Both the position numbers and the translations under genes were made by a program. Below the pieces are notes generated by a model that did no database searches, had not been told where the DNA came from, and saw nothing but the letters and a program-made list of their open reading frames with translations. This document shows positions 360 through 53,002 of a stretch of 64,000 bases of DNA, in pieces; the first letter of the stretch is position 1; every line of letters starts with the position of its first letter. The stretch is from Verrucomicrobiaceae bacterium UBA2429. GTDB taxonomy: Bacteria > Verrucomicrobiota > Verrucomicrobiia > Verrucomicrobiales > Verrucomicrobiaceae. Where the stretch lies: contig DDQZ01000056.1 of the NCBI GenBank assembly GCA_002343505.1, positions 1 to 64,000 on the forward strand. The letters are read 5' to 3'.

Positions 360-3300
360 ATGCAAACAATCTCCCCGGAAAATCCATCAGTGAATCTGCT
401 GGCAATGCAAAGGTTGATCAGAGTGTTGAACAGCGGAACCTCTCGAAATCAGGTGCTCAAAGAGCTGCTAAAGGAGATACGAGGCGTCGTTCCCGCGCAA
501 AACATCGCCTTGTTTGAGGTGGATCCGGATGATTTGGAGCAAATGTATTTGGCGGCTTCGGTGAAAGAACAACAGTCCCGAGGCTTCAGGGTGGTGCTTT
601 CGACGATGAGCAAGCTGGGAAAAGGCATCACAGCCTGGTGCGCGAGCCAAAAAACGCCGGGGAAACTGAATTCTGAGGGCCTAAAGGAGAATGCATACCA
701 CTCCAAAAGCGTGCCCATCCATTTGGGAGGGCAGCCTCTGCATAACATTTTATGGGTTCCTTTGCTGAGCGATGAGGGCGCTTTCCTGGGGTTGTTGAAA
801 TGTGAAAACAAACTAGACAAACAGGGCAAGCCCGCATCCCGCGCCTCATTCACTGATGAAGATCTCCGGCTGGCCACTGAGTTTCAGCCCCTGTTGACAC
901 TTGCCCTGCTCTGGCCCTACCCCCAGTCCGCGAGACGCCTGGAGGCGAGGAATGTGGCGCGCCGCATCGCCATGCGGCAACTGCGTGAAAACAACAATCC
1001 CAGCCAGACATTCCAGCTCGTCATCGCATCGGCGGTGAAAATCATCAAAGCAGACAGGGGTGACCTGGCCTGGTGGAAAGGCAAACAACACGCGCTGGTT
1101 TACGCGGCGGTGGAAAACGGCGCGCCGGACTGCGCCAGCATCAAGCCCGGCTCCATCGTGCATGAGAATTCCTTCATGCGCGCCGTCTTTCAGGATTTGG
1201 AAAACGACCATAGTGTGGATGGCAAGGTCCATCTAAGAACTGAAAACTACATCAAAGCCGATGAGAGAGTGCGCAGCGAACTGGCTGTGCGCATTGACTT
1301 GCATGGGAATCCCGCAGGTGTGATCAACATCGAGTCCTTCAAAGAGTCATATTTCGATGACGAGCATGTCGAAACCCTTCGCGACCTCGCGCAGGCGGCT
1401 TCCATTGCCATCCAGAATGCTCAGTTCAATCAACTGCTTCAACGCGCTCTCATTTACCCTCCCACAAAACCGGAGACAAGGCTTCAACCTATCCTGGAAG
1501 GCATCCTCGAAACTCTGGGCTATGACGCCGGCCTGGTTTACAGGCATGAGCCGTCCTGGAACTGGCTGCGCGTGGCCGCCTATGTGGCCGCCCCGGACAT
1601 TGAAGCCGTGCCAGCGGACTTCAAGCACAAACTGGACAAGCCCTCTTTTGCCCGACAGGTCTTTGAGCTTACCAGAAAGAACGGTCAGGATGACTGGCTG
1701 ACATGCCTTGATCCCCGCGGTGAAACCTCGGTGGACCAGGAGGCGCTCAAGGTGTGGAAGATACAGGGGCCACTATTCGGTTTCCCGCTGCGCTTCAGAG
1801 GCAAGCCGGTGGGCTGCATTGTGCTGTGGACCATTGACCGGCCCGCTCCCAGGCACCAGCAGGCCGAGCGCTATGTGCGGATTTTTCAACGGCTCGCCGC
1901 GGCACGCATTCATCTTTGGAACATCAACGCCGAGCTTCTTGAAAAGAAGGTCTTTTTCGAGGCTCTCAGCGGTTCGTTCATGATCTTCACCAAGCGCGAG
2001 GAATCAGCCTGGGGAGAGAACGACAGGCCGCAAGAAGTCTCCGCCAGCCAGCCCAGGATCGTTTTTGAATGGGCCAACGAGCAGTTTTTGACTCATGTGG
2101 GAAAAGAAATTCTCGACAGGAAGGGTTCCCTGGAGGGACTCACGGACTGGGATATTTTCAAGTCGGAGGCCGCCGAATACTACCGCGATGACCTGAAAAC
2201 CCTGGGCTATCATGAAACTGGAAAGCAGCAACCCAGGGTGGATGGAAAGCTGGAGCGCCACACTCGTCCGCGTGACAATGCTGACATGCAGGTGCGAGTC
2301 TGGAAAACCTGCTTCACAGGGGCCGATAAAAAACGCCGCATCCTCGTATTTTTCTGGGACCGAACTGACACCTACAAGATCGAATTGGAAAACCAGCTGT
2401 GGTCGGACGATTTTTTTCACCGGGTCTCATCGTGCTTCCGCCAGATCAGCCACTTGCTCCCAGGGCAACGCGGCACCTCCGGACAGGAGACCCTGGCTGC
2501 GGGCGCGCTGGAAAAAATCAATGCCAGCATTCAATACACAGACCGTCTTGTCAGGCTGCTTTATGAAAGAAGCGGCAAGGATGAGGTGGAGATTAAACCC
2601 TTTTTCACGGAGGCGACAGAGTTGGTCTCCAACATTTACCGTTCTGCGAAGAACTCCAATGTCACGCTGCAAAGCGAATTCTGTGAGGGGACCTTCCCCT
2701 GGTCCAAGGCGCGCGCCTGTGTTCGTGTGCTGGTCGAGCTGCTCTCCAATTCCTACCTTTGGGCGGCTGACTCCACCTCTGTGGGAGGCTCGTTCCAGAT
2801 TCGCTGCGTTCTCAAGCATGTGGATGGAGGACATGAGCTTACCATCTCCGACAACGGCCACCCGTTGACACAGGCCGTGCTGCGCGAGGCTGAGCCGCAT
2901 AAAGGCCTCGGCATTGTCAAACGCCTGGTTACTGACAGCCTCGGCGGGCGCATTGATTACCAGGAAACTGCCGGTGACGGCTGCGGGCCGGGCAACACAT
3001 TCCGGCTCTACCTGCCCGATTCCCGTCAGCCCGCCCCGCCTTTGAACGTGTCCGAAGACGGTCACAGCCCTCACATTTTGTTTGTGGACGATGACGCTGA
3101 TGACGCCGCCATTTACATCCAGGCATTGCGCAGGGAAGGCTATCGAGTCACCGGCCCGGTGGCCACGCTAAAGGAAGCGCACGAGATCCTCGCCGCCGGG
3201 AGAGTGTCACTGATCGTGCTGGACATCTCGTTGGGTGACAAACCCACGGCCGGGATAGAACTGGCCAAGGAAATCCGCAAAAAAATGCAGCCAGGTTCCA

Positions 3301-3938
3301 CCATGCCGATCATTTTCTTCACCAAACACAGCGCCGGCCACAGATGGGTTGACGAAGCCAAGCGCATCGAAGGTTCGTTTGTGCTGGTGAAACATGCCAA
3401 CAGAGTCGCAGAAGATCTGGTCTTGACGGTTTACAGCCGGCTGCGAGACCGCATCTCTGGCAATGTCCTGTTCGTCTGCTATTCCCACAATCAAAAGGAA
3501 ATCATGAACAAGCTTCACATGCATTTGAAAGCGCAGCAGATCGAGCAGGCGCTGGAAATCAAACTCTGGGTGGACACTGAAATCCCAAGCGGAGATGATT
3601 GGTTTGAGCGGATCAAGCAGGCGCTAGATGCCTCCATCGCCGCAGTTTTGCTGGTGGATGTTGATTTCATGAATTCGGCATTCATCCAACATCACGAACT
3701 GCCGGCTTTGCTGAACAGGGAGAGAAGCAAGAACAAGAGCATATTCCCCATCATGGCCAGCCAAACCGGAACCAAGCTGAATGGAGATGGTGATCTGCGC
3801 ATGCTCAACTTCATGGCTGAAACCGAGCAACGCCCGCTCGACACCCTGACTCCAGCAGAATTGTCTCAAAAGCTCGCCGAAATCGCCGGGAAAATTCGCA
3901 CGGACCTTGGCTGGCACATCGGCAAGCGTGGAATCTGA
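360..3938 (+). CDS. GAF/PAS sensor histidine kinase-like protein with receiver and C-terminal TIR domain
   Basis: About 1192 residues from ATG 360; an in-frame TTG at 327 would add 11. No signal peptide or membrane segment is seen, so it is probably cytoplasmic. Order of parts (approximate, from ATG 360): three GAF-like modules (10-185, 205-355, 365-530); a PAS-like module (535-680); a HisKA_2-like helix with FFHRVSSCFRQIS, whose His is about residue 687; an HATPase domain with ELLSNS (N box), ISDNG (G1) and KGLGIVKRL (G2); a receiver domain with the acidic pocket FVDDDADD, the phospho-acceptor in LDISLGD, FFTKHS and VLVK; then a TIR domain from about 1035 (FVCYSH, LWVDTEIPSGDDWFE, LLVDVDFMNS, HHELPALL). 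Glu in HHELP sits where NADase TIRs have the catalytic Glu. The gene stands alone, 27 bases from a convergent neighbour. Its base composition is less GC-rich than the genes that follow. The output of the TIR domain is unknown. Confidence 0.85.
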   Translation: MQTISPENPSVNLLAMQRLIRVLNSGTSRNQVLKELLKEIRGVVPAQNIALFEVDPDDLEQMYLAASVKEQQSRGFRVVLSTMSKLGKGITAWCASQKTPGKLNSEGLKENAYHSKSVPIHLGGQPLHNILWVPLLSDEGAFLGLLKCENKLDKQGKPASRASFTDEDLRLATEFQPLLTLALLWPYPQSARRLEARNVARRIAMRQLRENNNPSQTFQLVIASAVKIIKADRGDLAWWKGKQHALVYAAVENGAPDCASIKPGSIVHENSFMRAVFQDLENDHSVDGKVHLRTENYIKADERVRSELAVRIDLHGNPAGVINIESFKESYFDDEHVETLRDLAQAASIAIQNAQFNQLLQRALIYPPTKPETRLQPILEGILETLGYDAGLVYRHEPSWNWLRVAAYVAAPDIEAVPADFKHKLDKPSFARQVFELTRKNGQDDWLTCLDPRGETSVDQEALKVWKIQGPLFGFPLRFRGKPVGCIVLWTIDRPAPRHQQAERYVRIFQRLAAARIHLWNINAELLEKKVFFEALSGSFMIFTKREESAWGENDRPQEVSASQPRIVFEWANEQFLTHVGKEILDRKGSLEGLTDWDIFKSEAAEYYRDDLKTLGYHETGKQQPRVDGKLERHTRPRDNADMQVRVWKTCFTGADKKRRILVFFWDRTDTYKIELENQLWSDDFFHRVSSCFRQISHLLPGQRGTSGQETLAAGALEKINASIQYTDRLVRLLYERSGKDEVEIKPFFTEATELVSNIYRSAKNSNVTLQSEFCEGTFPWSKARACVRVLVELLSNSYLWAADSTSVGGSFQIRCVLKHVDGGHELTISDNGHPLTQAVLREAEPHKGLGIVKRLVTDSLGGRIDYQETAGDGCGPGNTFRLYLPDSRQPAPPLNVSEDGHSPHILFVDDDADDAAIYIQALRREGYRVTGPVATLKEAHEILAAGRVSLIVLDISLGDKPTAGIELAKEIRKKMQPGSTMPIIFFTKHSAGHRWVDEAKRIEGSFVLVKHANRVAEDLVLTVYSRLRDRISGNVLFVCYSHNQKEIMNKLHMHLKAQQIEQALEIKLWVDTEIPSGDDWFERIKQALDASIAAVLLVDVDFMNSAFIQHHELPALLNRERSKNKSIFPIMASQTGTKLNGDGDLRMLNFMAETEQRPLDTLTPAELSQKLAEIAGKIRTDLGWHIGKRGI

Positions 3939-14974: not shown

Positions 14975-17032
14975 TCAATTCTCCGAAGACTCCGCGCTCA
15001 GGCGGAAAAAGAGCCTGTCAGGCAGAGAAGGCAGGTGGAAAGACTTTTGGATTTCATAGACCGCGTTCGAAGTCGAAAACGGCTCGTCCTCCCAGGAGTC
15101 GAGGTCATCGCATGTCTGCAAAAAACCGTGCGCCGCCCACAACGGCCAGGCCGCCCTCAGGCTCGACGGGGATTGCCGGCTCAGCTTGATCTCAGGCAGC
15201 CCCTGCGGGACGGTGATCCACACAGGCAGCTTGTCGTCATGGCTGTTAAAGGTCAGCCGCCGGGTTTGCTCCAATCCATCCTCTCCAATTTTGGCGATGA
15301 AGACCTCGGAGTCACTTTCTCCCGCCGGCACCTCAGCATACGCGATCCAGGTGGGATCACCGGGATCAAAGACCGCCTCCGTCCCCGTCGTCGAGAGCGT
15401 CGTCATCGTATCCGCCTCCACATCATAGAGCAGGATGCCCGCAGGCTTGCTCATCAGCAGCCAGGCATGACCGTCCGCCTGATTCCGGGCATGGTCCAGC
15501 CGCGTCACACCCGCCGTCCCCCGCCCAGCCAGGGACACCTCGAAGACCGGCGGCCCCACGGCACCCAGACCATCAATCGCCAGCAGCCTCTCATCGAATG
15601 TCACCCCGTAAACATGCCCGCCGTTCTCCTTCACACGCGACCAGCAGCGCGCCGTAAAGCCGCCTCCCAAGGATGACGGCACACCCAGACTCATGCGGTG
15701 GCCCTGCACCTTGCGGTCAAAAGCCGTGCCGGAGCGGTTGGTCTCAAAAATCATCCACTCATGCCACGGACTCACCGCAGGCCGGCGGTCAAAGCTGCTC
15801 CCGCTGCTGTCCGTCGTCATCAACTCGGGCATTTGCGGACTAGGCAGCCGCAGCCGGTGAACACGCGCAGTCTGATTCGGAGGCCCCGGCGCGTCGAAAT
15901 AAAGCAGGCCGTGCCCAGGCGACTCAGGGTGGTTCACCGGCGCCAGATCCGCCCCCGTGAGCATCGCCTCCGCATGCGTCCCGGGAGTCAGCGGAGCCGC
16001 CCACAGCCTCCCCTGCCTCACCATCACCACGCCTATGGCAAAAGACGGCGCGCTCACCGCAGGCTCCTCGTCCCCACTGAAGCCGCTAAACTCGATGTCC
16101 GGCGCGGAGGTGTTGTGGACGCTCAAATGCTCTCTGCCGAAGCGCGCCACCACCAAGTCCCCAGCCCCGCCGAAAGCCAACACGCCCTCCTGGCTCATGC
16201 CGCCGCCCGCGTGTGTGGCAAAGACAGTGTCCACGTCCGAATTTCCGTCCTCCACAAACATCGAACGCAGCGCCGCGAACGGCAGGTCCAGCGCGCCCCC
16301 CATTCGGTTCATGGACACCTCCAGGCGCAGTTCCTCGCGGTTGACCACACTCACATGGAGCACCGTCGTGCTGCCGTCCGCGAACTTCAGGATCACATCT
16401 CCCCCTGCCGGCACAAACTCCACACTCTCCAGCACGCTCACCGGTCGCAGCCCCGTGCTTGTCACCGGTCCCAGCAACGCCGAACTGCCAAAAATATTGT
16501 CCGCGAAACCCTCCCTCGGATGCGGCTTGAGCCGGATGTTGCCGTCGCAGTACCCGACCATGATCTGCGGCCAGCTCGGCACACCCTGAATTTTGCGGTG
16601 AATTGTGAAGGTGTGGCATCCCCCCATCACTGCGGCGCCGGCTTTCACCTCCATCGTCACCGGCATCCAGAACGTGGCGAAGCGCTCGCCAAAAACCACC
16701 CACTCGCCATCGTCGTAAAGTTTCACCGAACCGGGATCGCTGAAGTGAAACACCGGGTCGCTTCCAAACTCGCAGTTTTCAAAATTCGGGTCCGTGTTGT
16801 CCACGGTGAACTCATAACCCGGATGCGCCGCCCGGAGCAGATACGAGGTCACATTTCGGGAAAGCAGCATCAGGGACACATTGTCCTCCTCCGCGCACAG
16901 CGTCGGCGTGGACTGGTTGATCACAGACACCGGCAGCGCGCCCGGCAAGAAGCCTGCCGCCGCCAGCAGAGTCAGGGAGCAGAAGGGAGCCAGGCGCCGA
17001 CGCGCAGGAAAGAAGCGGAGGATGGATTTCAT
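14975..17032 (-). CDS. Secreted WD40-like (PD40) beta-propeller protein
   Basis: 685 residues from ATG 17032, chosen because a signal peptide follows (FCSLTLLAAAGFLPGALPVS); the open frame continues upstream only as antisense of hemC. The central part holds TolB/PD40-type blades, for example RRPAVSPWHEWMIFETNRSG and FDPGDPTWIAYAEVPAGESD. The N-terminal third is beta-rich without a recognised family. It is probably periplasmic or surface-exposed and may bind protein or glycan. The C-terminal segment (LPEIKLSRQSPSSLRAAW onward) resembles the short verrucomicrobial C-terminal region found in similar proteins. A 15-base palindrome lies just upstream of the start. Confidence 0.7.
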   Translation of the reverse strand: MKSILRFFPARRRLAPFCSLTLLAAAGFLPGALPVSVINQSTPTLCAEEDNVSLMLLSRNVTSYLLRAAHPGYEFTVDNTDPNFENCEFGSDPVFHFSDPGSVKLYDDGEWVVFGERFATFWMPVTMEVKAGAAVMGGCHTFTIHRKIQGVPSWPQIMVGYCDGNIRLKPHPREGFADNIFGSSALLGPVTSTGLRPVSVLESVEFVPAGGDVILKFADGSTTVLHVSVVNREELRLEVSMNRMGGALDLPFAALRSMFVEDGNSDVDTVFATHAGGGMSQEGVLAFGGAGDLVVARFGREHLSVHNTSAPDIEFSGFSGDEEPAVSAPSFAIGVVMVRQGRLWAAPLTPGTHAEAMLTGADLAPVNHPESPGHGLLYFDAPGPPNQTARVHRLRLPSPQMPELMTTDSSGSSFDRRPAVSPWHEWMIFETNRSGTAFDRKVQGHRMSLGVPSSLGGGFTARCWSRVKENGGHVYGVTFDERLLAIDGLGAVGPPVFEVSLAGRGTAGVTRLDHARNQADGHAWLLMSKPAGILLYDVEADTMTTLSTTGTEAVFDPGDPTWIAYAEVPAGESDSEVFIAKIGEDGLEQTRRLTFNSHDDKLPVWITVPQGLPEIKLSRQSPSSLRAAWPLWAAHGFLQTCDDLDSWEDEPFSTSNAVYEIQKSFHLPSLPDRLFFRLSAESSEN

Positions 17033-17059
17033 TTCAAAGTCGTATGAGACGCCTGCGAA

Positions 17060-17074
17060 TTTTGTTAAACAAAA
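17060..17074. promoter_or_regulatory. Short palindrome upstream of the beta-propeller gene
   Basis: TTTTGTTAAACAAAA, two 7-base arms around a single central base. It lies 28 bases upstream of the ATG at 17032 in an otherwise GC-rich area, where an operator or promoter would be expected. No matching regulator is identified, and an AT-rich palindrome of this length can arise by chance. Confidence 0.3.
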
Positions 17075-17201
17075 ACATTCCTGGGCGAGGAGATTCCAGG
17101 CAAATCCAGGGATCAGGAGCAGGACAGCGGGTGTGTCCTTGACGCACCCCTTTGAAAACAAAGCGTTATTCAGCAGCCGGCGCGGCCGGGTGAAATGGAT
17201 T

Positions 17202-18146
17202 TCACTTCTCCAGACCGCGCGCCAGCCCGGCGGCGAGGGCGCGCGGTTCGCGGACGGGGTGGCTGGCTTGCTTTTCCACGGGCGGCGCGGAGAGGTCGGC
17301 TTCGTTGAAGACGCGGACGGCCATGTGCAGGGTGCCGCCGGTGATCCAGGTGCGCGCGCCGACGGGGGTCTGGCAGCCGGCGCCGAGCAGGCGCAGGAAC
17401 TCGCGCTCGGCGGTGACACGAGCCTCGGTCTCCTCATGATTCAGAGCGCGCACGAGGCGGATGGATTCCTCGTCGTCCTGGCGGCATTCGATGGCAATGG
17501 CCCCCTGCCCTGCCGCCGGGAGGAAGCGGGCTTCATCCAGGATGAGAGCGTGCAGGGTCATGCCCTCGATCCCAATGCGGTCCCCCTGCATCAAGCCGAG
17601 GCGGAGCAGCCCGGCGGCGGCGAGCAGGACGGCATCGAGCGCGTCCGGGCCGGTGACTTTTTTCACGCGGGTGGGCACGTTGCCCCGAATTTCGACGATC
17701 TGGATGTCGGGTCTGAGCCAGCGGAGTTGGGCGGCGCGGCGCACGCTGCTGGTGCCCACACGCGCGCCCGGCGGCAGACTCTCAAGTGTATGAGGGGCGG
17801 CTGTGACGAGCACGTCCTCGACGGGAGCGCGCGGCAGCACGGCGGCGATGACAAAACCGGGAGCCAGATCAGATGGCACGTCTTTGAGACTGTGAACGGC
17901 GGCATCCACGGCACCGGATTGAAGGGCGTTTTCCAGCTCCTTGATGAAAATGCCCTTGTCCACTCCGGCAGCCTGGTTGAACTCGGAGAAGCGCAGGTCC
18001 TGGCGCTTGTCGCCGCTGGTCTGGATGATCTCCCGCCGGATGTCGAGACCGGGGTGGCCGGCCTGCAGGCCCGCAGTGACGGTGCGCGTCTGGGCGAGCG
18101 CCAGTTCACTGCCGCGTGTGCCTAGAATGAGGTGGGTCTTGGACAT
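17202..18146 (-). CDS. hemC: Hydroxymethylbilane synthase (porphobilinogen deaminase)
   Basis: 314 residues from ATG 18146 (MSKTHLILGTRGSELALAQ); family proteins start just before this motif, so the GTG six codons upstream is disfavoured. The enzyme joins four porphobilinogens into hydroxymethylbilane in tetrapyrrole synthesis. Seen: TRGSELALAQT, HSLKDVPSDL, GTSSVRRAAQLRW, IRGNVPTRVKKV and the dipyrromethane-cofactor Cys in LGAGCQTPVGA (about residue 240). Length is normal. Other haem genes are absent here. Upstream on the same strand, 48 bases away, is an unrelated secreted protein gene. Confidence 0.95.
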   Translation of the reverse strand: MSKTHLILGTRGSELALAQTRTVTAGLQAGHPGLDIRREIIQTSGDKRQDLRFSEFNQAAGVDKGIFIKELENALQSGAVDAAVHSLKDVPSDLAPGFVIAAVLPRAPVEDVLVTAAPHTLESLPPGARVGTSSVRRAAQLRWLRPDIQIVEIRGNVPTRVKKVTGPDALDAVLLAAAGLLRLGLMQGDRIGIEGMTLHALILDEARFLPAAGQGAIAIECRQDDEESIRLVRALNHEETEARVTAEREFLRLLGAGCQTPVGARTWITGGTLHMAVRVFNEADLSAPPVEKQASHPVREPRALAAGLARGLEK

Positions 18147-20395: not shown

Positions 20396-23300
20396 TCAGG
20401 GTTCCCCCAGAATCACCCGCCCGCTTTCAGGATTTAGATCGTTGGGAATGTTGCTGATGAAGAACCCATAGCCTCCCCTGCTTGCACCCTTTCGAAGCAA
20501 AATGCCTTTGTAGGTGGGAAGTGCCGACGCCGGGATGGCCCAGGTTGGTCTGAAGCTGCCTGACATGGTCCCACTGGGCTGACTCGCTGAGATCGAATAA
20601 TTGGAGCTCACCGGATTCTCGTAAATGACATTGCCGACGATACGGAAGGACGAGATGTCAATTCCAGGATCAGGCAGTTTGCCATACGTGAAGCTGAGCA
20701 GACCGTTGCTGCTTCCCGATGGGACGGTTGGCAGGCCAAGTGTTGTCTGAACATCCCGCATGAAGTCATAAAGAGCACCCACAAGATCCACAGTGATGCC
20801 CTCCGGCCATCCATCTGTGTAGATCTGTGTCTCCTTGTTGAGGCTGGTTGTTCCAATCTGCTCCGGCACAGGTGGACGAATCCATAAAAGGTCGCCTCCC
20901 GTCACATCGCTGTCTGGATGGGCCGTGTCGAAGGACAACATCCCATTCAGATTGCCTCCACGCACGCCAACGCTTCTTCCCGGAACCGCAAGTTGGGCAA
21001 ACAAGATGCACTCATGCCCCTGCGTGATGACTGCGGGCCTGCTATTTACGCGTGTTCCATCAGCCAGGTTCAGGCTCAGGGTTAGTGTTCCATTCGACTT
21101 GAGAGTCATTGTGCCAAATCCATCTCCCTGTGGATAGGCGCTGGCATCTTTCGGTGGCGATTGAGGTTTGCTTGGCAGTGCAAAGGTGTAGAAGCCCTGG
21201 TCAATGGCACCACCCGCCACCGAACTTCTGTTCAGTAGATTGGCAGGAACCGGATTCGCTGCTGAGTAGATGCCTCGGCGTGCCACTCCGGTGCTTGAGT
21301 GCGCCCCGTCCACCAGGCTGATGTCAATGGCACCAGCATTATAGGTCAATGTGAGGAACAATGTGCCGTGCATCAACGTCGCGCCTTTGAGCGGAGTAGT
21401 GAACCAACTGCTGCCGTCGCCATTAAACGCCCCAACAAATCTTTGCTCAATGCCATCGGAGTACCAGTTGCCTGAGACCGCCCCGGTGGATGGAACCAGG
21501 ACAATGTGAATGTAGCCGGTTGTGCGGTTGCTGACAGGCGTGCCTGGCAGCGGACGAATGAGTCCTTGAAAGACATCGCTGCTGCCTGGGGGGCCGGCAA
21601 AGGGGCTTTCGATGAACACTGCGTTGACCTCCGCATCATGACCGGGCATTTGGAATTGGAGCGCCGAGCCTGAGCGCACAGCCCCTGGGGGTGTGGCGGA
21701 CCAATGGCTGAAAACAAATCCAGGTTTGGGCCTCGCCGTCACGGTGATGGCGGTGTTTGGTTCGACCTGGGTTGTGGCCACATGCGGATTCGCGGCATCT
21801 TTCATCAGAGACGTCTTGCCTGTCCCTGGCGTGCCTTTGACGCTCAGGGTATCAATGAAATCCGCATCGAAACCTGCTGGCACCTCGCGAGAGAGGGTAA
21901 GCAGATGCCGACGGGTAAACACAAAGCTCCTGCTGACTGTCGTGGTGTTGCCAGCGTTGTCGTAAGCTGTGACCGCGAGCGTGTTGGGGCCATTCGGCGG
22001 TTCAATATTCAGTGACCAGGGGATGGAGGTGGCTCGTGCGGTTGATCCCAGCATGGCAACGACAGGTTGGGCACCATTGAGCACAACCTCCACCCGATCC
22101 AGCCCGCGTGAATCACCCGCGGAGCCTTGGATCATATAGGGCCAGCCGGCGCTAATGGAAGTGGTGGTGGCTCTTGGCGACGTGACCGTCAAAGTTGGCG
22201 GAGTGGTGTCATCAGCCATGATCTCTATGGTCGTAGATGTCTGACCCTCCACAAGAACACCATTGGTCGCAGCGGTGAGCGTTGCATTGAAGCGCTTGTT
22301 GGTCTGCGTGCCGGTCCTCGGTTTGAGGATGATGACCAGTTCCTTGCTGGTCTCCCCGTCAGCAAAGGCCACAAGCGTGGCTGCGCCTGTCAGATCAATG
22401 TAATCAGTCCCCGCCACGGCCGCCGAGAAGGGCGGATTGGAAACCTGGGCGGTTCCATTGTCCGTTTGCATCGTGACGGTGGTGGGGGTGCTGCCGTCTG
22501 TGCGGACAAGGGTCAGCACCACGGCGTCAGCCCCCTGCTGAACGGTGTATTTCGGGGCGCCAAAGCTGACGCCTCCCTCTCCGATGACAAGCGGATGCAC
22601 AAGCTGGCTGCTGTTCCCTGCGGAGTCCATTGCTGTCAGGGTGACGTTGAGGATTCCAGGGTTTGCAATCAACGTGCCAGCGGGCGGAGTTTGCAGAACC
22701 TCTGTTACCTCCACGTTGTCAGCCACGGCCACCTGAGGAGTGAAGTCCGGAACATTAGTTCCCACACGAATCCCACCCGGTGTGAAGCCGCCAGGTGGAG
22801 GGCTGATCATCGGGGGCGTGGTGTCATTCACCGTCAGGTTCAAAGTCAGTGTGGTGGAGTTTCCGAGGGTGTCGGTGGCTGTCAGAGTCACCGGATGCAC
22901 CCCGACGCTCACGAGCGTTCCCGCCGGAGGCTCCTGGACAAAGCTGGCCACTCCAATGGGGTCCGCCGGAACAGTCTGGTTTTTGTAGTTCGGTACACTG
23001 GCCATGCCTGTGGGCCCCGATCCGATGACGAGAGGCTGAAAGCCAGGTCCTGGAGGTGTCGTGATTGTTGGCCCGGTGCCATCCACTCTGATGGGAAGCG
23101 TGGGGCTGGTGAAGGCGTGGTTCCCCGCCGCATCCGTGACCCTCCCTTTGAGGGTGTAAACGCCTTCATCGAGCGTGAATGTGACCGAACCCGTGGTGCC
23201 GCTTCCGACCGGCACATCATTGGCCAGGACCGTGTAAGTCAAAGGAGTGCCGGGTGGCGTGGCACCATCGCTCCATCCTGAAAGCCAGACGGTGACCAGG

Positions 23301-26300
23301 GTTCCTGGAAGCCTGGGATCGAAGTTGTTGTTAACGATGAGATTCGGCGTGCTGCTGACCGGAGGCGTGGTGTCCTGCACGGTGACCACAAAGCTGCCCG
23401 TCGTGGTGAAACCATGGCTGTCGGTCGCACTCACGGAGACGGTCGTTGACCCCAGGGGGAAAATGCTGCCGCTGCTCTTGCTCAGCACCGGTGCCAGCGC
23501 ACCGTCTTCAGCATCCTCGGCCGTGACCGTGAAGGTTGCAGGCGCGCCCGAAAAACTTGTGGCCTCGACGATGATCGGTGAGTCAGGCAGATGGAGTTCT
23601 GGGGGCGTGTTGCTGATGGAGCCTCCCTTGAAGCGGGCCAGTGCGAAGTTTGTTATCGTGCCACTGTCAGGATCATACACATGGCCTCCTACAAGAATGT
23701 TGCCATCCGCCTGCAGGAGCATGCTTGACGGCTCATTGTATCCCTCGTCAGGCCCATGCTGGGCGAAGGCCTTGCCTCCGGTGCCGAACCCGGCATCCAA
23801 CGCTCCGTTGGGCAGCAACCGGGCGAGCGCAAAGCGATAATCGCCTGTCCTTGCTGCCAAGAGCACCTTGCCACCTTCTTCAATTTGCACCCCCTCACAA
23901 AAGTTTTCCCCTGGACCAAGATTCACCACCACCTTGCCCCCATTGCCAAAACTCATGTCCAGGCTGCCATTTTCCAAACACCGTACCAAACAAGCGTCAC
24001 TATCAGTGCCCTGGCCGCTAAAACTAATCCCTGCCACCACAATGTTGCCGTCAGACTGCAAAGCCACGCCAGTTGCAAAATCATGGGTTGCACGAACATC
24101 GGTTAACAGAATTCCGTCATCGCTGAAACTGGGGTCCAATGTGCCGGTTTCAAGATAGCGCAGCAGCAGAAGATCGCGTTCAGTATTGGTATCGGTATTG
24201 CCTGCCACCACAATTTTTCCATCAGGCTGAATGGCTATCGCAGATGCCCCTTCGTAGTAGCCTCCGAGGTCAGTAACCACTCTGCCGCCATTTCCAAAAC
24301 TCGAATCCATTTCTCCAGAGGGCAACAAGCGAACCAACGCGATGTCGTTTAAGCCGTTGCCAGCCACGACAATCTTGCCATCCGCCTGGAGTGTCATCGC
24401 AGCCAGAAATGCGTCAGCACCCACGTCTGTTAGTGCGATTCCACCGGTGCCAAATTCGCCGTCCAGTGCACCTGTTTCCGTGTAGCGTGTGACCAAAAAG
24501 GAATAGCCCAAGAACTGAGTCCAGGTTCTGCCTGCCACCAGTATTTTCCCGTCTGGCTGGACGACCACACTTCTGCCCTCGCTCCCATCTCCAATGACCG
24601 TGACAACCTTGCCTCCATTGCCAAAGCTGGTGTCAAGCGAACCGTCAGGATTGTGGCGGATCAAGCACAGATGAAACGCGTCAGCGGAGGTCGATGCCTG
24701 CCCAGTCATCAGGATCTTGCCATCCGCCTGCTCGGCGATGCTAAAGCAAAGATCCTGACTGCCAGAATAGTCCGGCGCGATGTCCGTCACGGCCCATCCA
24801 CCCTGCCCGAAATTGGCGATCAACTCCCCTGGCAGTGCGATGGCCACCGTGAAGGGCAGGGTTTGCTCATTGCCCGCGGCATCCAGCGCGCTCAGCGTCA
24901 CCGGCAGCAGGCCGGAGGGGTGGATGCTGCCCGGTGCGGGAGTCTGAACCAGGCTGCCGGCAAACAGGCCGTTGTCAGAGACGGTGGCACGACTGCGGAA
25001 ATCGGGCAGCGGTTCGCCGGTCAGTTCCGCCAGATTGGAGAAGCTGCCCGCGATGACCGGCGGCGTCGTGTCCTGGATCGTCACCGTGGCGGTGTCTTGA
25101 TAAAGCCCGTTGACGATGGTGTAGGTGAAGCTGTCCGCACCCGCGAATCCCGGCCCGGGAGTGTAAGTGACCGTCGTGCCATTGTTTGTGATGGTCACAG
25201 CGCCGTGCGTGCCCTGGGTGACGGCGGAAATCAGCGTGTAGGGCGCCTGGACCGTGTCGTTGCTCATGACGGAGATCACAGCCGCCGCAGGTGCGGCCTC
25301 GACCGTGTCATCCATGGCATCCACCGGCGCATAGACCACCAGGTCGGTGAAAACGATGGAGGTGGGATCGTAAAGGCTGCCCTCGCCATAGTGGATGGTC
25401 AGACCCGCAGTGCCAGAGGCATTGTTGAGCCTGCCTCCGTTTGCCACATTAACAAAAACTCCGCTCAGTTGGGTGGAGGTCAGAACGGTGAATATCTCGC
25501 CTCCGGTCAACTGGCTTTCAAAACCATTGATGAAGTCAAACTCGATGCCGCCGCCGAGCAGCACCGAGGCGTTGGCGAGAATTTGGTCATAGAGCGTGCC
25601 CCCGGTGGTGCCGCCCAGGTTGAAGCGCAGCAGGCTGCCACCGGCCATGGCCACGTCACCCACGACATTGAGAACGCCTGCGGACCCCGCGCCCCCGGCC
25701 TCGACAATGCCGCTAGTGATGTTCAGCGGCGCGTTGATGGTTCCGTGCGCCGCCAGCGTGCCGCCGTTGATGTTGACATTGCCAGCGGTCAGCACCGCAT
25801 TATTGGTCAATAGCGTGCTGCCTGCGGACTGGGAGTAGCTGGACACTCCTGCGGGCCCGATGCGGAGTTCCGTGGTGCTGTCCTCCACACGGAGGATGCC
25901 GGAGTTGGTCAGGTTGCCGCCGGTGGTGAAGTCACGATTGTTCCGCAGGATGAAGGAGCCCTGAATGCTGGACAGGGTGTTGATCTTGGCAAAGCTGGAG
26001 CCCGCGCCGTCAAGGATCACACCAGCGTTGCTGCCGATGGTCGTGATGCTGCTGCTGCCGGAGCTGAAGTTGAGGGCTGCGCCGTTGCTTACCTCCCAAT
26101 TGCCGCTGACAAGGGTTGTGCCGGACTGGCTTGGGGTGTTGCTGGCAAGCGCAAGCACACCGCTCCGCACCTGCACGGTGCCGCCGGACTGCACGGTGAG
26201 GTTCACCGTGTTGGTGCCGCTGCCCAGCGTGCCGCCGATGGTGGTGGTGGCCCCGCCGGCGCTCTTGCGCAGGATGCCGCCGCCTTCCACCACCAACGCG

Positions 26301-28240
26301 CCGTTGGCGCTGTTGGCGTTGTTGTCGCCGATCTGCTGGTCGTTCTGGATGTCGAAGAGCCCGCCGTTTTGCACGCGGATGGTGCCGTCGGCCAGGTTGA
26401 TGTTGCCGGCACCCGTCCAGGTCGTGATCGCCGTGCCCGTGCCGCCCCCGATGTGCAAGGCGCGGCCTGCGATCTCCTTGACCGGCGTGCCGCTGATGTT
26501 GAGCGCGCCGCCGCCGTCAATCTGCGTGGTGCCGGCGCCGCTCATCGTGCCGCCGGACCAGTTGAGCACGCCGCCGCTGTTGACCGTCAGCGTGCCGGCG
26601 CCAGTGAGCATGGAGCCGGTGGCGGACATCTCCAAAAGCCCGTTGACCGCCGTGGGGCCGCTGATGGTCATGGTGTTGTTGTTGCGCACCGCCCCGGTGC
26701 CGCTGCCGTCGCTGCCGCCGTTGATGACTCCGCCGTTGAAGGTGAACGCGCTGTTCAAGTCCATGCGCGCGCCGCTGCTGACCTCCAGCTTGCCGGTGCC
26801 TGTCACGCTGCCGCCGCCCACCAGGCTGAGCACGCCGCTGCGGCCCTGCACGGTGCCGTCTTCCTGCACGGTGAGGATGACCGTGTTGCTGCCGTTGCCG
26901 AGGCTGCCGCCGATCTGAGTGGTGCCCGTGCCCACGCTCTTGCGCAGGATGCCGCCGCCGCCCACCACCACCGCGCCGTTGATGCTGTTGGCGTTGTTGT
27001 CGCCGATCTGCGCGTCGTTCTGGATGTCGAACAGCCCGCCCTCGGACACGGTGATCCTGCCGTCCTCCAGATTGATCCTGCCGGTGCCCGTCCACGTCGC
27101 CACCGCCCCCTCCCCGCTGATGTTGAAAAAGCGGCCCGAGATCACCTTGTCGCCGCTGCCGCTGATGCTGGCCGTCGCGCCCTCCAGCAGGTTGGTCACA
27201 CCGCCGGCGGTGTCCATCGCCCCGCCGCTGAACTCGAACGTGCCGCTGATGTTCAGCGTGCCCGCGCCGCCCAGAGTGCCGCTGCTGATGCCGAAGTTCT
27301 CCGCGTCCACCGTCACCATGCCGGCCACATCCAGCCGCCCGCCCGCCACGCTGGTGCGGCCCGCGCCGGTGATGGCGGCTGTCTGCATGTCCACCGTTGT
27401 CAGCGTCTGCGTGCCGCCGGTGAACTGGATGGTGCCGTTCTCCCCGGCATGGAAGGTGCCGCTGCTGGTGCCGCCTCCGTTGAGCAGCAGCGTCCTGGCA
27501 TTGGCATTGGCCGTGCCGTGGTTGCTGAAGGTGCCCAGGAAGCGCAGCGTGCCGCTTTGCACCTCCACCAGACCGCCGGCGTTGACCGTCGTGTTCACCG
27601 TGTTGGTGCCGCTGCCCAGCGTGCCGCCGATGGTGGTGGTGGCCCCGCCGGCGCTCTTGCGCAGGATGCCGCCGCCTTCCACCACCAACGCGCCGTTGGC
27701 GCTGTTGGCGTTGTTGTCGCCGATCTGCTGGTCGTTCTGGATGTCGAAGAGCCCGCCGGTCTGCATGCGGATGATGCCGTCGGCCAGGTTGATGTTGCCG
27801 GCACCCGTCCAGGTCGTGATCGCCGTGCCCGTGCCGCCCCCGATGTTCAAGGCGCGGCCCGCGATCTCCTTGAGGGCCGTGCCGCTGATGTTGAGCGTCG
27901 CACCACTGGCGATCTGCGTGATGCCAGTTCCGCTGAAGGTTCCTCCCGTCCATGCGGATCCGATCCCATGTAGTGTCAGCGTGTGCGCGCCATTGATGGT
28001 GCCGCCTCCAAAAAGGAGGTTTTGAATGGCGACTGCCATGTCCACCGTGACCGTGCTGGCGTTCACCGTGGCGTTCCAGTTCTGTCCGTTCTGTCCGTTG
28101 ATGGGGGCAAAGCTGTTGGGACTCCAGATCAAGGCGTTGGACCAATTTCCAGAGGTGTTCAGCGTGGCGCTGCCGTCCTGTGCCAGGGCACTCATGGCGG
28201 TCAGCAGCATGGCGGAGGTGGCGATGAGGCGCGTTTTCAT
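20396..28240 (-). CDS. Giant secreted mosaic repeat protein (beta-helix repeats, delta-60, HYR, Calx-beta, InlB-like)
   Basis: 2614 residues with a Sec signal ([21 protein letters not shown]). Order: autotransporter-like, Gly/Thr/Asn-rich beta-helix repeats to about 960, including three large units near 115-216, 354-457 and 579-680 ([34 protein letters not shown]); an Ig-like domain with [13 protein letters not shown]; about seven delta-60 repeats at roughly 1143-1533 (FGNGGKVV plus [11 protein letters not shown]); several HYR-type domains ([29 protein letters not shown]); a Calx-beta domain ([18 protein letters not shown]); an Ig-like domain; an InlB-B-like segment ([20 protein letters not shown]); and a C-terminal region of unknown fold. 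There is no terminal aromatic residue and no recognisable barrel or PEP-CTERM anchor, so its attachment is unclear. It is probably an adhesin or surface stalk. A small FN3-like gene lies 62 bases upstream. Confidence 0.88.
26201..26505 (-). repeat. 305-base direct repeat, copy A, inside the giant gene
   Basis: Nearly identical to 27593-27897 in length and sequence, with only scattered substitutions. It encodes one beta-helix unit containing [27 protein letters not shown] and [17 protein letters not shown] more diverged third unit lies around 26870-27180. The identity at DNA level suggests recent duplication or gene conversion. Confidence 0.85.
27593..27897 (-). repeat. 305-base direct repeat, copy B, inside the giant gene
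   Basis: Partner of 26201-26505 in the same orientation and reading frame, 1392 bases apart. Recombination between the two would delete exactly 464 codons without a frameshift. Confidence 0.85.
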
Positions 28241-44103: not shown

Positions 44104-44139
44104 CGAAATTCATCCCAATAAATCAGGCAAAACGCGCGC

Positions 44140-45792
44140 ATGTATTCGAACGAAGAGTATCTCCTGGAACTGCTCACCGAAGCAGGGCTGGTCATGGAAA
44201 GCGACCTTCAGAAGGTCAAGACCACCAAGAAACCGAACGAGAGCACCCTGGAGGGCCTGATCAAAACCGGCGTCGTCAGCGACGAGCAGGTGGCGCAGAC
44301 CGTGGCGGTGAACTCCGGCATGGAATTCATAGACCTGCACGGCTTCGCCGCCAGTCCGCAGCTCAAAACCCTGGTGCCAATGGAGGTGGCGCGGAAGTAC
44401 AAGATCGTGCCCGTGGGCATGAACGGCCCGGCCATGCAGATCGCCGTGTCGGACCCCTATGACTTCGAGACGCTCGACGCCCTGCCCCACGTCATCCAGC
44501 CGGACCTCGAATACTTCTGCTCCACGCCCGCGCTGATCAGCGCGCTGCAGCTCAACGTGTACGGGAACGAGTTCGTCACCGACGCCTCCAGCGCCGCCGC
44601 GGGCGGCATGAAGAGCGACGACGCGCCTGTCATCAAGCTGGTGAACAACATCCTGCTGGAGGCCTTCAAAAACGGCGCGTCCGACATCCACATCGAACCT
44701 TTGGAAAAGGACATCCGCGTGCGCCTGCGCATTGACGGCGTCCTGCACGATGTGGAGCACCACCCCAAACGCCTGCACTCCGCCATCATCGCCCGCGTGA
44801 AGATCATGTGCGGCACCATGAGCGTGGACGAGAAGCGCGTGCCGCAGGACGGGCGCATCCAGATGGCCTTCCAGGAAAAGGAGCTGGACATGCGCGTCTC
44901 CATCATCCCCACCAACAACGGCGAGAGCGTGGTCATGCGCGTGCTGGACAAGAGCAGCCTGCGCCTCGGACTCTCCGACCTCGGCTTCCTCTCCGACGAC
45001 CAGGACACTTTTGAAAAACTCATCACCCTGCCCGACGGCATCGTGCTGGTCACCGGGCCGACAGGGTCCGGGAAAACCACCACGCTTTACGCCTGCCTCA
45101 ACTTCATCAACAGGCCCGACCGCAAGATCATCACCGTGGAGGACCCCGTGGAATACGAGCTGGCCGGCATCAACCAGGTCATGGTCAAGGAGGATGTGGG
45201 CATGACCTTCGGCGCCGCCCTCAAAGCCATCCTGCGCCAGGCGCCCAACATCATCATGATCGGTGAGATTCGCGACCTGGAGACCGCCTCCATCGCCATC
45301 AACGCCTCCCTCACAGGGCACCTGGTCTTCTCCACCCTGCACACCAACGACGCGCCCAGCTCCATCGCCCGCCTCGCCGACATCGGCGTCAAGCCCTTCC
45401 TCATCGCCTCCGCCGTGCGCGGCATCCTGGCCCAGCGCCTGGTGCGCAAGCTGTGCGGAACCTGCAAGGAGCCGACCAGCCTCAACGAGCGCGAGATGCG
45501 CCACCTGGGCCTGGAGGCCAGCCAGCTTTACAGCGCGAACATCATGGGCCCCAAAGGCTGCAACAAGTGCCGCGGGGCCGGCTTCAAAGGCCGCATGGTC
45601 ATCGCCGAAATCTTCAAGGTGGACGACGAGGTGCGCAACATGGTCAACATGCAGCTCACCACCCCGCAACTGCGCAAGCGCGCCCGCGAGCTGGGCATGA
45701 GAACCCTGCGCGAGGACGGCATCCGCAAGGTCATGGCCGGCATGACCACGGCCGGCGAGGTCATCGAGGCCACCATGGCCGACGCCGAATGA
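44140..45792 (+). CDS. Type II secretion/type IV pilus assembly ATPase, GspE/PilB family (copy 1)
   Basis: 550 residues. It powers pilus or pseudopilus assembly from the cytoplasmic face. An N-terminal MshEN-type domain (about 1-140) is followed by a linker, then the ATPase: ASDIHIEPLEKDIRVRLRID, GRIQMAFQEKELDMRVS, Walker A in TGPTGSGKTTTLYA (about 304), Asp box, Walker B MIGEIRDLETA, His box STLHTNDAPSS, and a zinc tetracysteine site (CGTC near 440, CNKC near 474). All parts are complete. A second, paralogous ATPase gene starts 48 bases downstream. The gene heads a plus-strand cluster that continues to a pseudopilin. Confidence 0.93.
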   Translation: MYSNEEYLLELLTEAGLVMESDLQKVKTTKKPNESTLEGLIKTGVVSDEQVAQTVAVNSGMEFIDLHGFAASPQLKTLVPMEVARKYKIVPVGMNGPAMQIAVSDPYDFETLDALPHVIQPDLEYFCSTPALISALQLNVYGNEFVTDASSAAAGGMKSDDAPVIKLVNNILLEAFKNGASDIHIEPLEKDIRVRLRIDGVLHDVEHHPKRLHSAIIARVKIMCGTMSVDEKRVPQDGRIQMAFQEKELDMRVSIIPTNNGESVVMRVLDKSSLRLGLSDLGFLSDDQDTFEKLITLPDGIVLVTGPTGSGKTTTLYACLNFINRPDRKIITVEDPVEYELAGINQVMVKEDVGMTFGAALKAILRQAPNIIMIGEIRDLETASIAINASLTGHLVFSTLHTNDAPSSIARLADIGVKPFLIASAVRGILAQRLVRKLCGTCKEPTSLNEREMRHLGLEASQLYSANIMGPKGCNKCRGAGFKGRMVIAEIFKVDDEVRNMVNMQLTTPQLRKRARELGMRTLREDGIRKVMAGMTTAGEVIEATMADAE

Positions 45793-45840
45793 GCCGCCGC
45801 AGAACCCTGAACCCGAGAACCCAAGACAAAGACAGACGCT

Positions 45841-47499
45841 ATGACAGCCCAAAACGTGGTGGACATGCTGGAGGCACGCGGAGTGATAGACAGCGGCCAG
45901 GCTTATGATTTGACGCAGGATGTGGTGCAGAACGGCAAGGACATCCTCCAGGCCCTGCTCGACTATGAGATCTTCCCCAACGAGGATGTCTTCTGGTCGC
46001 TCGTCGCCGAGGAGCTGGGCGCGGAGCACTTCGACCTCGCCTCCTTCGAGCCCGCCCCCTCCGTGGTCAACCTCATCCCCGGCGGCATGGCCCGCCTTTA
46101 CGGCGCCTTCCCCGTCACCCTCGACGGGCGCGGCCTGCATGTGGCCTTCACCGACCCGCTCAACCCCCAGCTCGTCGAGGACCTGCGCTTCGGTCTCGAC
46201 AAGATCATCGTCCCCGTCGTGGCCCGCCGCAGCCAGGTGCAGGATCTCATAGACAAGCACTACGGCACCAGCGCTCCGAACATTGACGAGATCTTCGGCG
46301 GCCTCAAGGACGCCGGCAAAAACGCCCCCGAAGTTGAGGCCAACTCCGCGCCCATTGTCAAGTTCGTGGACCTGGTCATGACCCAGGCCATCAAGGAGCG
46401 AGCCTCCGACATCCACTTCGAGCCCTTCGAGCACGAATTCAAAATCCGCTACCGCGTGGACGGCGCGCTCTACGAGATGGCCCCGCCGCCCGTCCACCTG
46501 GCCACCAGCGTCATCTCCCGCATCAAGGTCATGTCCAACATGAACATCGCCGAGCGCCGCATCCCCCAGGACGGGCGCATCATGACGGTGGTCAACGGCA
46601 AGGCGGTGGACATGCGCGTCAGCTCCCTGCCCACCCAGCACGGCGAGTCCGTGGTGCTGCGCGTGCTTGACCGCTCCTCCATCCAGCTCGAGCTCACCGA
46701 CCTCGGCATGCCCGGGCCTTTGCGCGACTACATTGAGGACACCATCGAAAAGCCCAACGGCATCTTCATCGTCACCGGCCCCACCGGCGCGGGCAAGACC
46801 ACCACCCTCTACGCCTGCCTGCGCAAGATCAACACCGTGGACAGCAAGCTGCTCACCGCCGAGGACCCCGTGGAATACGAGCTCGACGGCATCATGCAGG
46901 TGCCGGTCAACGACGCCGTCGGCCTCACCTTCGCCCGCGCCCTGCGCGCCTTCCTCCGCCAGGATCCCGACCGCATCATGGTCGGCGAGATGCGCGACAA
47001 GGAGACCGCGCAGATCGCCATCCAGGCCTCCCTCACAGGGCACCTTGTGCTCAGCACCCTCCACACCAACGACGCCGCCGGCGCCGTCACCCGCCTCGTG
47101 GACATGGGCGTGGAGCCCTTCCTCGTCGCAGCCACTCTTGAGGGCGTGCTCGCCCAGCGCCTGCTGCGCACCATCTGCAAAAACTGCCGCGCCCCCTACG
47201 AGCCGAGCCAGTCCATCCTCAACCAGCTCAACCTCTCCGCCGACGACATCGGCGGCAAGCACTTCTACACCGGCAACGGCTGCGACAAGTGCGGCGGCAG
47301 CGGATACAAGGGCCGCAAAGGCATCTATGAGCTGCTCGACGTGACGGATCCCATCCGCGAACTCATCACCCAGAAGGCCCCCACCCTCGTGCTCAAGCAA
47401 AAGGCCATCGAACTTGGCATGCAGACCCTGCGCGAGGACGGCCTGCGCAACATCTACGAGGGCGAGACCACCATTGAGGAGGTTCTCAAATACACCTGA
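45841..47499 (+). CDS. Type II secretion/type IV pilus assembly ATPase, GspE/PilB family (copy 2)
   Basis: 552 residues, full length and paralogous to the preceding gene but clearly diverged. Motifs: ASDIHFEPFEHEFKIRYRVD, Walker A TGPTGAGKTTTLYA (about 311), Walker B MVGEMRDKETA, STLHTNDAAGAVTR and the tetracysteine site (CKNC near 446, CDKC near 481). The N-terminal domain differs more from copy 1 than the ATPase core does. Because the PilT retraction-type signatures are absent and the PilB-like N-terminal domain is present, this is a second assembly-type ATPase, not a retraction motor. It lies between copy 1 and the PilC/GspF gene. Confidence 0.92.
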   Translation: MTAQNVVDMLEARGVIDSGQAYDLTQDVVQNGKDILQALLDYEIFPNEDVFWSLVAEELGAEHFDLASFEPAPSVVNLIPGGMARLYGAFPVTLDGRGLHVAFTDPLNPQLVEDLRFGLDKIIVPVVARRSQVQDLIDKHYGTSAPNIDEIFGGLKDAGKNAPEVEANSAPIVKFVDLVMTQAIKERASDIHFEPFEHEFKIRYRVDGALYEMAPPPVHLATSVISRIKVMSNMNIAERRIPQDGRIMTVVNGKAVDMRVSSLPTQHGESVVLRVLDRSSIQLELTDLGMPGPLRDYIEDTIEKPNGIFIVTGPTGAGKTTTLYACLRKINTVDSKLLTAEDPVEYELDGIMQVPVNDAVGLTFARALRAFLRQDPDRIMVGEMRDKETAQIAIQASLTGHLVLSTLHTNDAAGAVTRLVDMGVEPFLVAATLEGVLAQRLLRTICKNCRAPYEPSQSILNQLNLSADDIGGKHFYTGNGCDKCGGSGYKGRKGIYELLDVTDPIRELITQKAPTLVLKQKAIELGMQTLREDGLRNIYEGETTIEEVLKYT

Positions 47500-51718: not shown

Positions 51719-53002
51719 TCACTGCAACCGGTAGAAACCATCCGGATTGTACAGCCAGTAGGCGTCGAGGGGATTCAGTCTTGGCAGCAGGGCGATGGGT
51801 TTGCCGCGCTCGTCGTTCGACTCGATGATCTCCGTCTGCGGCGGCATGCCGGGCAGGCGCGGGGCGCTGGTGGTCGAGGCGGCCTGCTGGCTGTCGGGGT
51901 GGCGCAGCAGGGAGGTCTCCTCAATGTCTTCGACGATCTCGTCCACCCACTTGAGTTTGCGCGCGTTGTCGGCGAACTCGCTCCAATCCCCGGTGGACGC
52001 CTCCTGATACATGCGGGCGATGAACTCCTCCCGGGTCAGCCCCATCTTTTCCGCCACCGGGTCGGCGAGACGACGCCACCATTCCTCAAGCTGCTTCACA
52101 TTTTCCCGGTGCTGGGTGAGGTTTCCGGCGACGCCCACGGAGAGCTGGTGGTGAAGCAGGATGGCGTTGGGATAGGCAAAGGATTTTTTGGAGACGGTGG
52201 TGATGCAGGCGGCCATGCTGGCGGCGAAGGACTTCACCACGGTATGGACGGGCGCTTTGGAGCCGTGCATGGCTTTGATGATCTTGTAGCCCGCCATGAC
52301 ACTGCCGCCGGGGCAGTCGTCTATGACAATGAAGATGGGCGCCTCCGAGTCGCGGTTGTTGAAGTAGGCGATGCGGTCGGCGATGTGGTCCGCGGTCTTG
52401 GCGGTGATGACGCCATTGAGCGCAATGCGGCGGTCTGATATGACCAGCTTGCCACCCTGGTGCGGGTCCTTGAGATACTCGGGCGCCTTGCCGACGGCGT
52501 GAGTGCGCGCCTCGGCCTCCTTTTGCTGGAGCTCGATCTGGAGCGTGATCTCGTTCGTCCTGGCGCGCACCTCGTTCTCCTTTTTGCGCATCTCGAAACT
52601 TTGCAGTTCGACCTCGTTCTTCGCGATCACAGCCTCGATCACGAGGCGCTCGCTCTTGCGGCGCAATTCCAGCAGATCGGGATCATCAGCACTGCGGCGC
52701 TTGATTTCAGCCAGGTCCATGCGCGTCTTTAAATCCTCCATCTGCGCCTGGATCTCCGCGACCGCGCGTTTTTGCCCGGCCAGCTTTTCGTCCAGCCGCG
52801 CCTGCTCCAGGGCGAGCTGCGCGGTGATCTTGCTCCTCTCGGCTTCGAGACGCGCTGTCTCCGCCTTGAGTCCGGCCAGCGGGTCGGCGGGTTCGTCCTT
52901 TTTGGATTCCGCGGCGGGCGCGTCCACCGGCTTTTCCTCAGCGCCGGTGAGTGTGGAGAGGCTGCAAAACAGGAGCGGCAAAAGAAGGAGGTGGATTTTC
53001 AT
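51719..53002 (-). CDS. Secreted ClpP-fold serine protease with long coiled coil
   Basis: 427 residues from ATG 53002, which opens a signal peptide (MKIHLLLLPLLFCSLSTLTG). Residues about 35-180 are a charged coiled coil (LKAETARLEAERSKITAQLA). Then comes a ClpP/crotonase-fold domain: IFIVIDDCPGGSVMAGYKII forms the oxyanion loop, the catalytic Ser is about 262 in FAASMAAC and the His is at 284 or 285 in LLHHQL, a spacing close to that in ClpP. The signal makes it extracytoplasmic, unlike true ClpP, and nearer to SppA/NfeD-type proteases. It is divergent from a sulfatase gene across 132 bases. The substrate is unknown. Confidence 0.85.
   Translation of the reverse strand: MKIHLLLLPLLFCSLSTLTGAEEKPVDAPAAESKKDEPADPLAGLKAETARLEAERSKITAQLALEQARLDEKLAGQKRAVAEIQAQMEDLKTRMDLAEIKRRSADDPDLLELRRKSERLVIEAVIAKNEVELQSFEMRKKENEVRARTNEITLQIELQQKEAEARTHAVGKAPEYLKDPHQGGKLVISDRRIALNGVITAKTADHIADRIAYFNNRDSEAPIFIVIDDCPGGSVMAGYKIIKAMHGSKAPVHTVVKSFAASMAACITTVSKKSFAYPNAILLHHQLSVGVAGNLTQHRENVKQLEEWWRRLADPVAEKMGLTREEFIARMYQEASTGDWSEFADNARKLKWVDEIVEDIEETSLLRHPDSQQAASTTSAPRLPGMPPQTEIIESNDERGKPIALLPRLNPLDAYWLYNPDGFYRLQ

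Follow-up and report, generated by a model that had tools for sequence, protein, structure and literature searches.

The stretch analysed, called the window below, comprises 64,000 nucleotides (positions 1 to 64,000, forward strand) of contig DDQZ01000056.1 in assembly GCA_002343505.1 of Verrucomicrobiaceae bacterium UBA2429. An open reading frame (ORF) at 360-3938 of the plus strand, stop codon included, encodes P0001, a protein of 1192 amino acids in which a GAF/PAS array, a histidine kinase-like module, a receiver, and a TIR domain follow one another. An alternative TTG start 33 bases upstream of position 360 would give a product of 1203 amino acids; the ATG at 360 was adopted because the homologues P0002, P0003, and P0014 start at the same alignment column. 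The features of the gene are as follows, where PDE denotes phosphodiesterase and DHp the dimerization and histidine phosphotransfer helices.

360..3938, plus strand: whole gene, 1192 amino acids, stop included
444..887, plus strand: GAF1, residues 29-176, with N150, K151, F164, and D168 (Pfam GAF; GAFs of an adenylate cyclase and of PDEs matched by profile in PDB)
945..1439, plus strand: GAF2, residues about 196-360 (Pfam GAF and GAF_2; model; limits approximate)
1458..1859, plus strand: GAF3, residues about 367-500 (third Pfam GAF stretch; model; limits approximate)
1980..2360, plus strand: PAS-like domain, residues 541-667 (PAS_4 in relatives; model)
2364..2564, plus strand: DHp-like helices, residues 669-735, with H687 at codon 2418-2420 (conservation; HisKA_2 in relatives; model)
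2583..3020, plus strand: ATPase domain, residues 742-887, with E793, N797, D831, G833, and G849 (HATPase_c; conserved columns)
3069..3446, plus strand: receiver, residues 904-1029, with D910, D911, D955 at codon 3222-3224, T988, and K1011 (Pfam; structure matches; conserved columns)
3465..3905, plus strand: TIR, residues about 1036-1182, with C1040, D1072, F1108, and E1113 at codon 3696-3698 (Pfam TIR_2; PDB profile; conserved columns)

The original prediction, made from this DNA alone, had named three GAF modules, a PAS module, a HisKA_2-type His, HATPase boxes, a receiver with its Asp, and a C-terminal TIR domain, and this anatomy is borne out by Pfam, by the relatives, and by structural modeling. 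In P0001, Pfam cut-offs are exceeded by GAF (three stretches), HATPase_c, Response_reg (47.6 bits at residues 906-1012), and TIR_2 (45.5 bits at residues 1038-1152, cut-off 28), the last of which also passes in all seven full relatives put to Pfam. At the places expected for PAS and HisKA_2, P0001 gives no Pfam match at E 10, and a weak PAS_8 match falls inside the TIR domain; both calls are made for P0001 because aligned relatives exceed the respective cut-offs, PAS_4 in four of the eight scanned (P0012, P0013, P0015, and P0016) and HisKA_2 in two of the eight (P0006 and P0012). The secondary structure of the full-length AlphaFold2 model (pLDDT 76.9, pTM 0.42) contains three GAF-like blocks, a PAS-like block at 541-667, two DHp-like helices at 669-702 and 710-735, an ATPase block, and a receiver; the modeled domains are credible, and the packing between them is not predicted. 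The receiver ends with a helix at 1016-1029 and the first TIR strand follows at 1036, so that the TIR domain begins approximately six residues after the receiver. A TIR-like fold had been expected after residue 1035, and alternating strands and helices are seen there both in this model and in a model of the receiver and TIR domains (REC-TIR; pLDDT 82.6, pTM 0.69). The kinase-receiver-TIR arrangement of P0001 is confirmed.

The homologue family was assembled from two database searches, in each of which approximately 8,000 candidates were scored, and it may be larger than the set recovered. The first search gave nine proteins, six of which (P0001 included) combine GAF, receiver, and TIR; in the second, the same combination occurs in eight among the 120 listed of 145 proteins. 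Together they hold 10 distinct proteins of the same domain order (P0001-P0006 and P0012-P0015, 1037-1277 amino acids), and the proposed search for the domain combination in protein databases has thus returned nine further proteins, which are 56, 51, 39, 35, 34, 32, 26, 26, and 27% identical to P0001 in alignment order (range 26-56%). A single domain order shared by 10 homologues at identities as low as 26% goes far beyond what chance would give, and a fusion produced by assembly or annotation was rejected because all 10 members keep this order. The start of GAF1 is absent in two of the 10, P0012 and P0013, and P0016 is a shorter relative of 756 amino acids without ATPase, receiver, and TIR domains. 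P0002 is labeled Prosthecobacter sp. in the database, and one family entry is named just GAF domain-containing protein.

Conserved columns were counted in the 10 full members. H687, E793, N797, D831, G833, and G849 of the kinase and D911, D955, and T988 of the receiver are identical in all of them, and R688 and K1011 are each kept in nine. The features of a hybrid histidine kinase are found, namely a DHp region with H687, the N, D, and G boxes, and a receiver with D955, and because these kinase and receiver columns are invariant, a residue is available for every step of a relay from ATP through His to Asp. The best structure-search matches to the receiver are themselves receivers.

In the TIR domain, C1040, Y1041, W1070, D1072, W1081, F1108, E1113, and P1115 are identical in all 10 members, and I1109 is kept in nine. 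A profile built from the 10 family TIRs alone was searched against PDB sequences and gave 28 matches at E up to 1, the last few of which are clearly chance (clathrin, gremlin). The best match is 7xoz, an ADP-ribosyl cyclase/cyclic ADP-ribose hydrolase (E 1.1e-4), followed by AbTIR (7uwg, 3.7e-4), RPV1 (5ku7, 3.9e-4), 3h16 (2.8e-3), RPP1 (7crb, 3.5e-3), and TIR-SAVED (7qqk, 7.4e-3). The Glu of the HHELP motif, E1113, had been placed at the position of the catalytic Glu of TIRs that cleave nicotinamide adenine dinucleotide (NAD+), the NADase TIRs, and the alignment agrees: AbTIR chain positions 37, 74, and 78 align with D1072, F1108, and E1113, and a single offset of +130 converts them to D167, W204, and E208 in the numbering of the available text of PMC11374754. 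Each of the 10 members has this Glu. According to the portion of PMC11374754 at hand, E208A inactivates AbTIR, D167A, W204A, and S140A inhibit it, and changes at R151, V193, R215, and Y238 are also inhibitory; in its table, TcpC is inhibited by the equivalent substitutions of Glu, Asp, and Ser and unaffected by that of Trp to Ala. Among 22 other TIRs, a non-random set chosen with the family profile out of fetched loci and supplemented by two proteins, the Ser is present in 22, the Asp in 22, and the Glu in 21. On alignment grounds, the family TIR is related to NADase TIRs with two required residues, the Glu and the Asp, kept. The best 50 structure matches are receivers or GAF/PAS proteins and kinases with no TIR chain among them, which says nothing against the fold.

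A separate observation concerns C1040 (codon 3477-3479), a Cys in TIR strand A that is aligned near AbTIR S140 and lies close to the catalytic Glu. Cys occupies this place in 10 of 10 family members and in none of the 22 other TIRs, all of which have Ser. As a unique mark of the family it was rejected, since L040 and L041, which belong to the 12 further TIR_2 matches in the genome, also have Cys when inspected by eye.

Based on these features, a possible mechanism is proposed in which P0001 is a hybrid histidine kinase whose receiver controls an NAD+-cleaving TIR domain in cis, a tentative reading to which we give somewhat less than an even chance. A small ligand or a partner bound to the GAF/PAS array would switch the kinase, H687 would be phosphorylated from ATP, and the phosphate could then move on, within one chain, to the receiver residue D955. 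Phosphorylation of D955 may alter pairing or packing such that TIR domains meet and cleave NAD+, with NAD+ loss or an ADP-ribose signal as the possible outcome. The direction of control may be either, as the phosphate could activate or restrain the TIR, and the role of the protein may lie in stress, dormancy, or phage defence. The original prediction is therefore partly supported, its anatomy and its placing of the catalytic Glu being right, and as it did, we infer NAD+ cleavage and its gating by the relay. If the relay does control the TIR, the two-component toolbox would be tied to TIR effectors, any signal read by GAF or PAS domains could set off a loss of NAD+ or the making of an ADP-ribose signal, and a reversible phosphorylation switch would be added to enzymes known mainly for ligand-driven assembly. 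Sensor, kinase, receiver, and effector stand in one chain with one residue per step, which makes the proposal directly testable.

Several observations weigh against this mechanism. The HATPase_c match at 786-887 barely passes in P0001 (26.7 bits, cut-off 26.4) and is over the cut-off in four of the seven full relatives scanned, the second glycine of the G2 box (G851) is present in only five of the 10 members, and the packing between domains is without a confident prediction, as reflected in the pTM of the full-length model. In the TIR, F1108 takes the place of AbTIR W204 with four rather than three residues before the Glu, C1040 takes the place of S140, and model confidence near E1113 is low (pLDDT 64 at residues 211-220 of the REC-TIR model's own numbering and 60 at 1111-1120 in the full model). 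MyD88, an adaptor not known to have NADase activity, is likewise hit by the family TIR profile (E 0.015).

The TIR points bear on the first of the two main rivals, in which the TIR serves for protein contacts or self-assembly, gathering the kinase into clusters or bringing in a partner, the receiver works as a relay or a sink for phosphate, and no NAD+ is cut. The appearance of MyD88 among the PDB matches is in keeping with such a scaffold, as are the strand A change from Ser to Cys in all 10 members and the lack of a literal WxxxE in the C helix (the wording in the available text of PMC11374754), where FIQHHE is found instead. However, E1113 and D1072 are invariant, the corresponding residues are nearly constant in the other TIRs counted above, and TcpC tolerates Ala at the equivalent of W204, though not at those of E208 and D167, in the mutagenesis data of PMC11374754 at hand. 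The scaffold is regarded as rather unlikely.

In the second rival, a GAF ligand or assembly through the GAF array is the chief trigger of a TIR with NADase activity, and the His-Asp relay would form a branch of its own or act on an unlinked partner. This would be in line with the character of GAF1. A GAF1 profile of nine rows (the short P0012 and P0013 excluded, P0016 included) found 14 PDB sequences with E no higher than 0.01, headed by the tandem GAFs of a cyanobacterial adenylate cyclase (1ykd, 2.1e-18) and followed by PDE5, PDE10, and PDE2; one metal-dependent phosphohydrolase and two phosphoenolpyruvate-protein phosphotransferases were also matched. NKFDE is the motif of cyclic-nucleotide-binding GAFs; of its positions, all 11 aligned rows retain N150, K151, and F164, and 10 retain D168. 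No row has the closing Glu, and P0001 has Leu there. Since PDEs make up a disproportionate share of the GAF domains with solved structures, this likeness is only suggestive of cyclic-nucleotide binding. TIR effectors that fire on assembly are known: the accessible parts of PMC9402430 describe assembly-driven NADase activity of the TIR of SfSTING, a precedent that also counts in favor of the receiver-gated reading, and those of PMC11229360 describe TIR-SAVED, which fires on nucleotide-driven assembly. Against a side-branch relay, the TIR directly follows the receiver, whose phosphorylation site is kept in all 10 members, and this rival appears unlikely.

Returning to receiver control of the TIR, an elaborated form would be an immune or dormancy switch within a single protein, in which a cyclic nucleotide-like ligand on GAF1 starts the His-Asp relay, the phosphorylated receiver joins TIR domains, and NAD+ is destroyed or converted, with the invariant Cys next to the active site as a possible redox input; a TIR effector would in that case be fired by two-component signaling without an intermediary; this combination is speculative and we consider it doubtful. 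Very improbable is a receiver that acts as a cREC-like domain handling or sensing a TIR-made nucleotide rather than accepting phosphate: the weak cREC_REC match (PF20274, 20.6 bits, E 7.4e-4), the tie of cREC to NAD+/ADP-ribose systems in the available text of PMC7824862 and PMC9503650, and the nucleotide sensing proposed for the REC-like domain of Cam2 in the accessible part of PMC11229360 are outweighed by a score below both the cut-off of 27 and Response_reg, by the lack of any hit at E 0.1 among the eight relatives scanned (P0003 and P0004 outside the scan), by conservation of T988 and K1011, and by the kinase that precedes the receiver in P0001, as cREC is said in those passages of PMC7824862 and PMC9503650 never to occur with histidine kinases.

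All parts of the protein are known from other systems, and the kinase-receiver-TIR chain is a new arrangement of them. The family profile matches HisKA_2-type GAF/PAS sensor kinase genes with an adjoining receiver elsewhere, such as the multi-PAS kinase L046 (749 amino acids), which reads IHHRVKNN; the receiver of L046 is a separate open frame, whereas P0001 carries receiver and TIR in one chain. With AbTIR and other bacterial TIR NADases, P0001 shares a TIR_2-type domain with Glu and Asp at the E208 and D167 places, and it differs from AbTIR at W204 and S140 and in that its TIR, a candidate NADase, is the predicted output of a kinase and receiver. Among PADLOC profiles, SAVED_TIR (E 2.1e-10) and ThsB (E 2e-7) match P0001, both within the TIR alone. 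TIR-SAVED, TIR-STING, and Thoeris ThsB differ in that the sensor of P0001 is a GAF/PAS array plus kinase, and no SAVED, STING, or ThsA was found in P0001 by PADLOC or Pfam. The top-scoring TIR outside the family in a local search (92.1 bits) belongs to P0007, an NTPase-TPR-TIR protein whose putative NTPase is read from its sequence; it has the same Asp, Glu, and Phe, but Ser in strand A and another sensor. The cREC domains have in common with the receiver of P0001 a receiver fold, which in their case stands beside NAD+ enzymes (available text of PMC7824862), and the difference lies in the histidine kinase. In the accessible text of PMC7159879, conflict-system effectors include TIR and receiver domains, and the vWA-associated effectors described there are without histidine kinase domains. 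No histidine kinase or receiver with a TIR as its output was found among the titles and abstract openings listed by a literature search, with most subscription papers outside it; in the part of PMC4606965 at hand, the two terms name separate protein groups.

The gene is sporadic. A full-length copy was not found in 47 other genomes of the genus and 48 further relatives (96 searched, own included), nor in 386 other genomes of the phylum (387 searched, overlapping the set of 96), where, among the matches listed, only the gene itself spans receiver and TIR. The three genome searches scored at most 7, 2, and 6 candidates per genome, and weak cases could be missed. No relative of P0001 was confirmed in two genome-contig scans and one viral-contig scan, a plasmid search matched three records in the TIR only, and a phage search with the TIR gave no matches. 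The guanine-plus-cytosine (GC) content of the gene is 0.554, and the gene lies where GC is lowest among stretches of its size in the window (0.552 at the minimum, against a median of 0.642); of the 25 ORFs compared, just one is lower in GC and just two are lower in third-position GC (GC3, 0.673 for this gene), as expected of an acquired gene. The genome holds 13 TIR_2 matches, 11 over the cut-off and P0001 included, and only P0001 among them hits the family TIR profile at E 0.001, so its TIR did not arise by recent duplication of one of the others. On another contig of the same genome (G000:C69:52286-58685), four TIR_2 matches lie inside 6.5 kb.

Trees of the N-terminal part, the kinase, and the receiver set P0001-P0004 apart with support of 100/99, 100/98, and 96/97, respectively, and the TIR tree groups P0001-P0003 (99/96). 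Supported branches of the domain trees are without conflict, unsupported ones shift P0006, and much of the branching is unresolved; the pattern suggests an accessory gene that may have spread as a single unit. A single origin of the family TIR is not claimed, as the members fall on one side of a branch with support of just 74/67.

The contig begins 359 bases before the gene, and the upstream sequence holds the last 28 codons of another gene, presumably photolyase-like. Downstream, a convergent gene for a 2-hydroxyacid dehydrogenase is followed by one for a protein of beta-lactamase fold and by further genes, and the neighbours examined look ordinary. Ten other window proteins were put to PADLOC. 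Matches to PD-T4-6, mad6, and similar profiles were given no weight because they fall on Ser/Thr kinase domains, RtcR matches were discounted as located on a sigma-54 activator, and the other seven proteins gave no match at 1e-5; neither ThsA nor SAVED was found by PADLOC in the 10, the upstream side being cut by the contig end. Elsewhere in the window, on the minus strand, the ORFs at 14975-17437 (820 amino acids) and 44110-47400 (1096 amino acids) give no Pfam match at E 1e-5, and the ORF at 51719-54520 (933 amino acids) has a Clp-protease-like stretch at residues 693-839. The ORF at 20396-28240 of the same strand (2614 amino acids) carries DUF5122 beta-propeller, HYR, and bacterial immunoglobulin-like (Ig) domains and likely encodes a surface protein.

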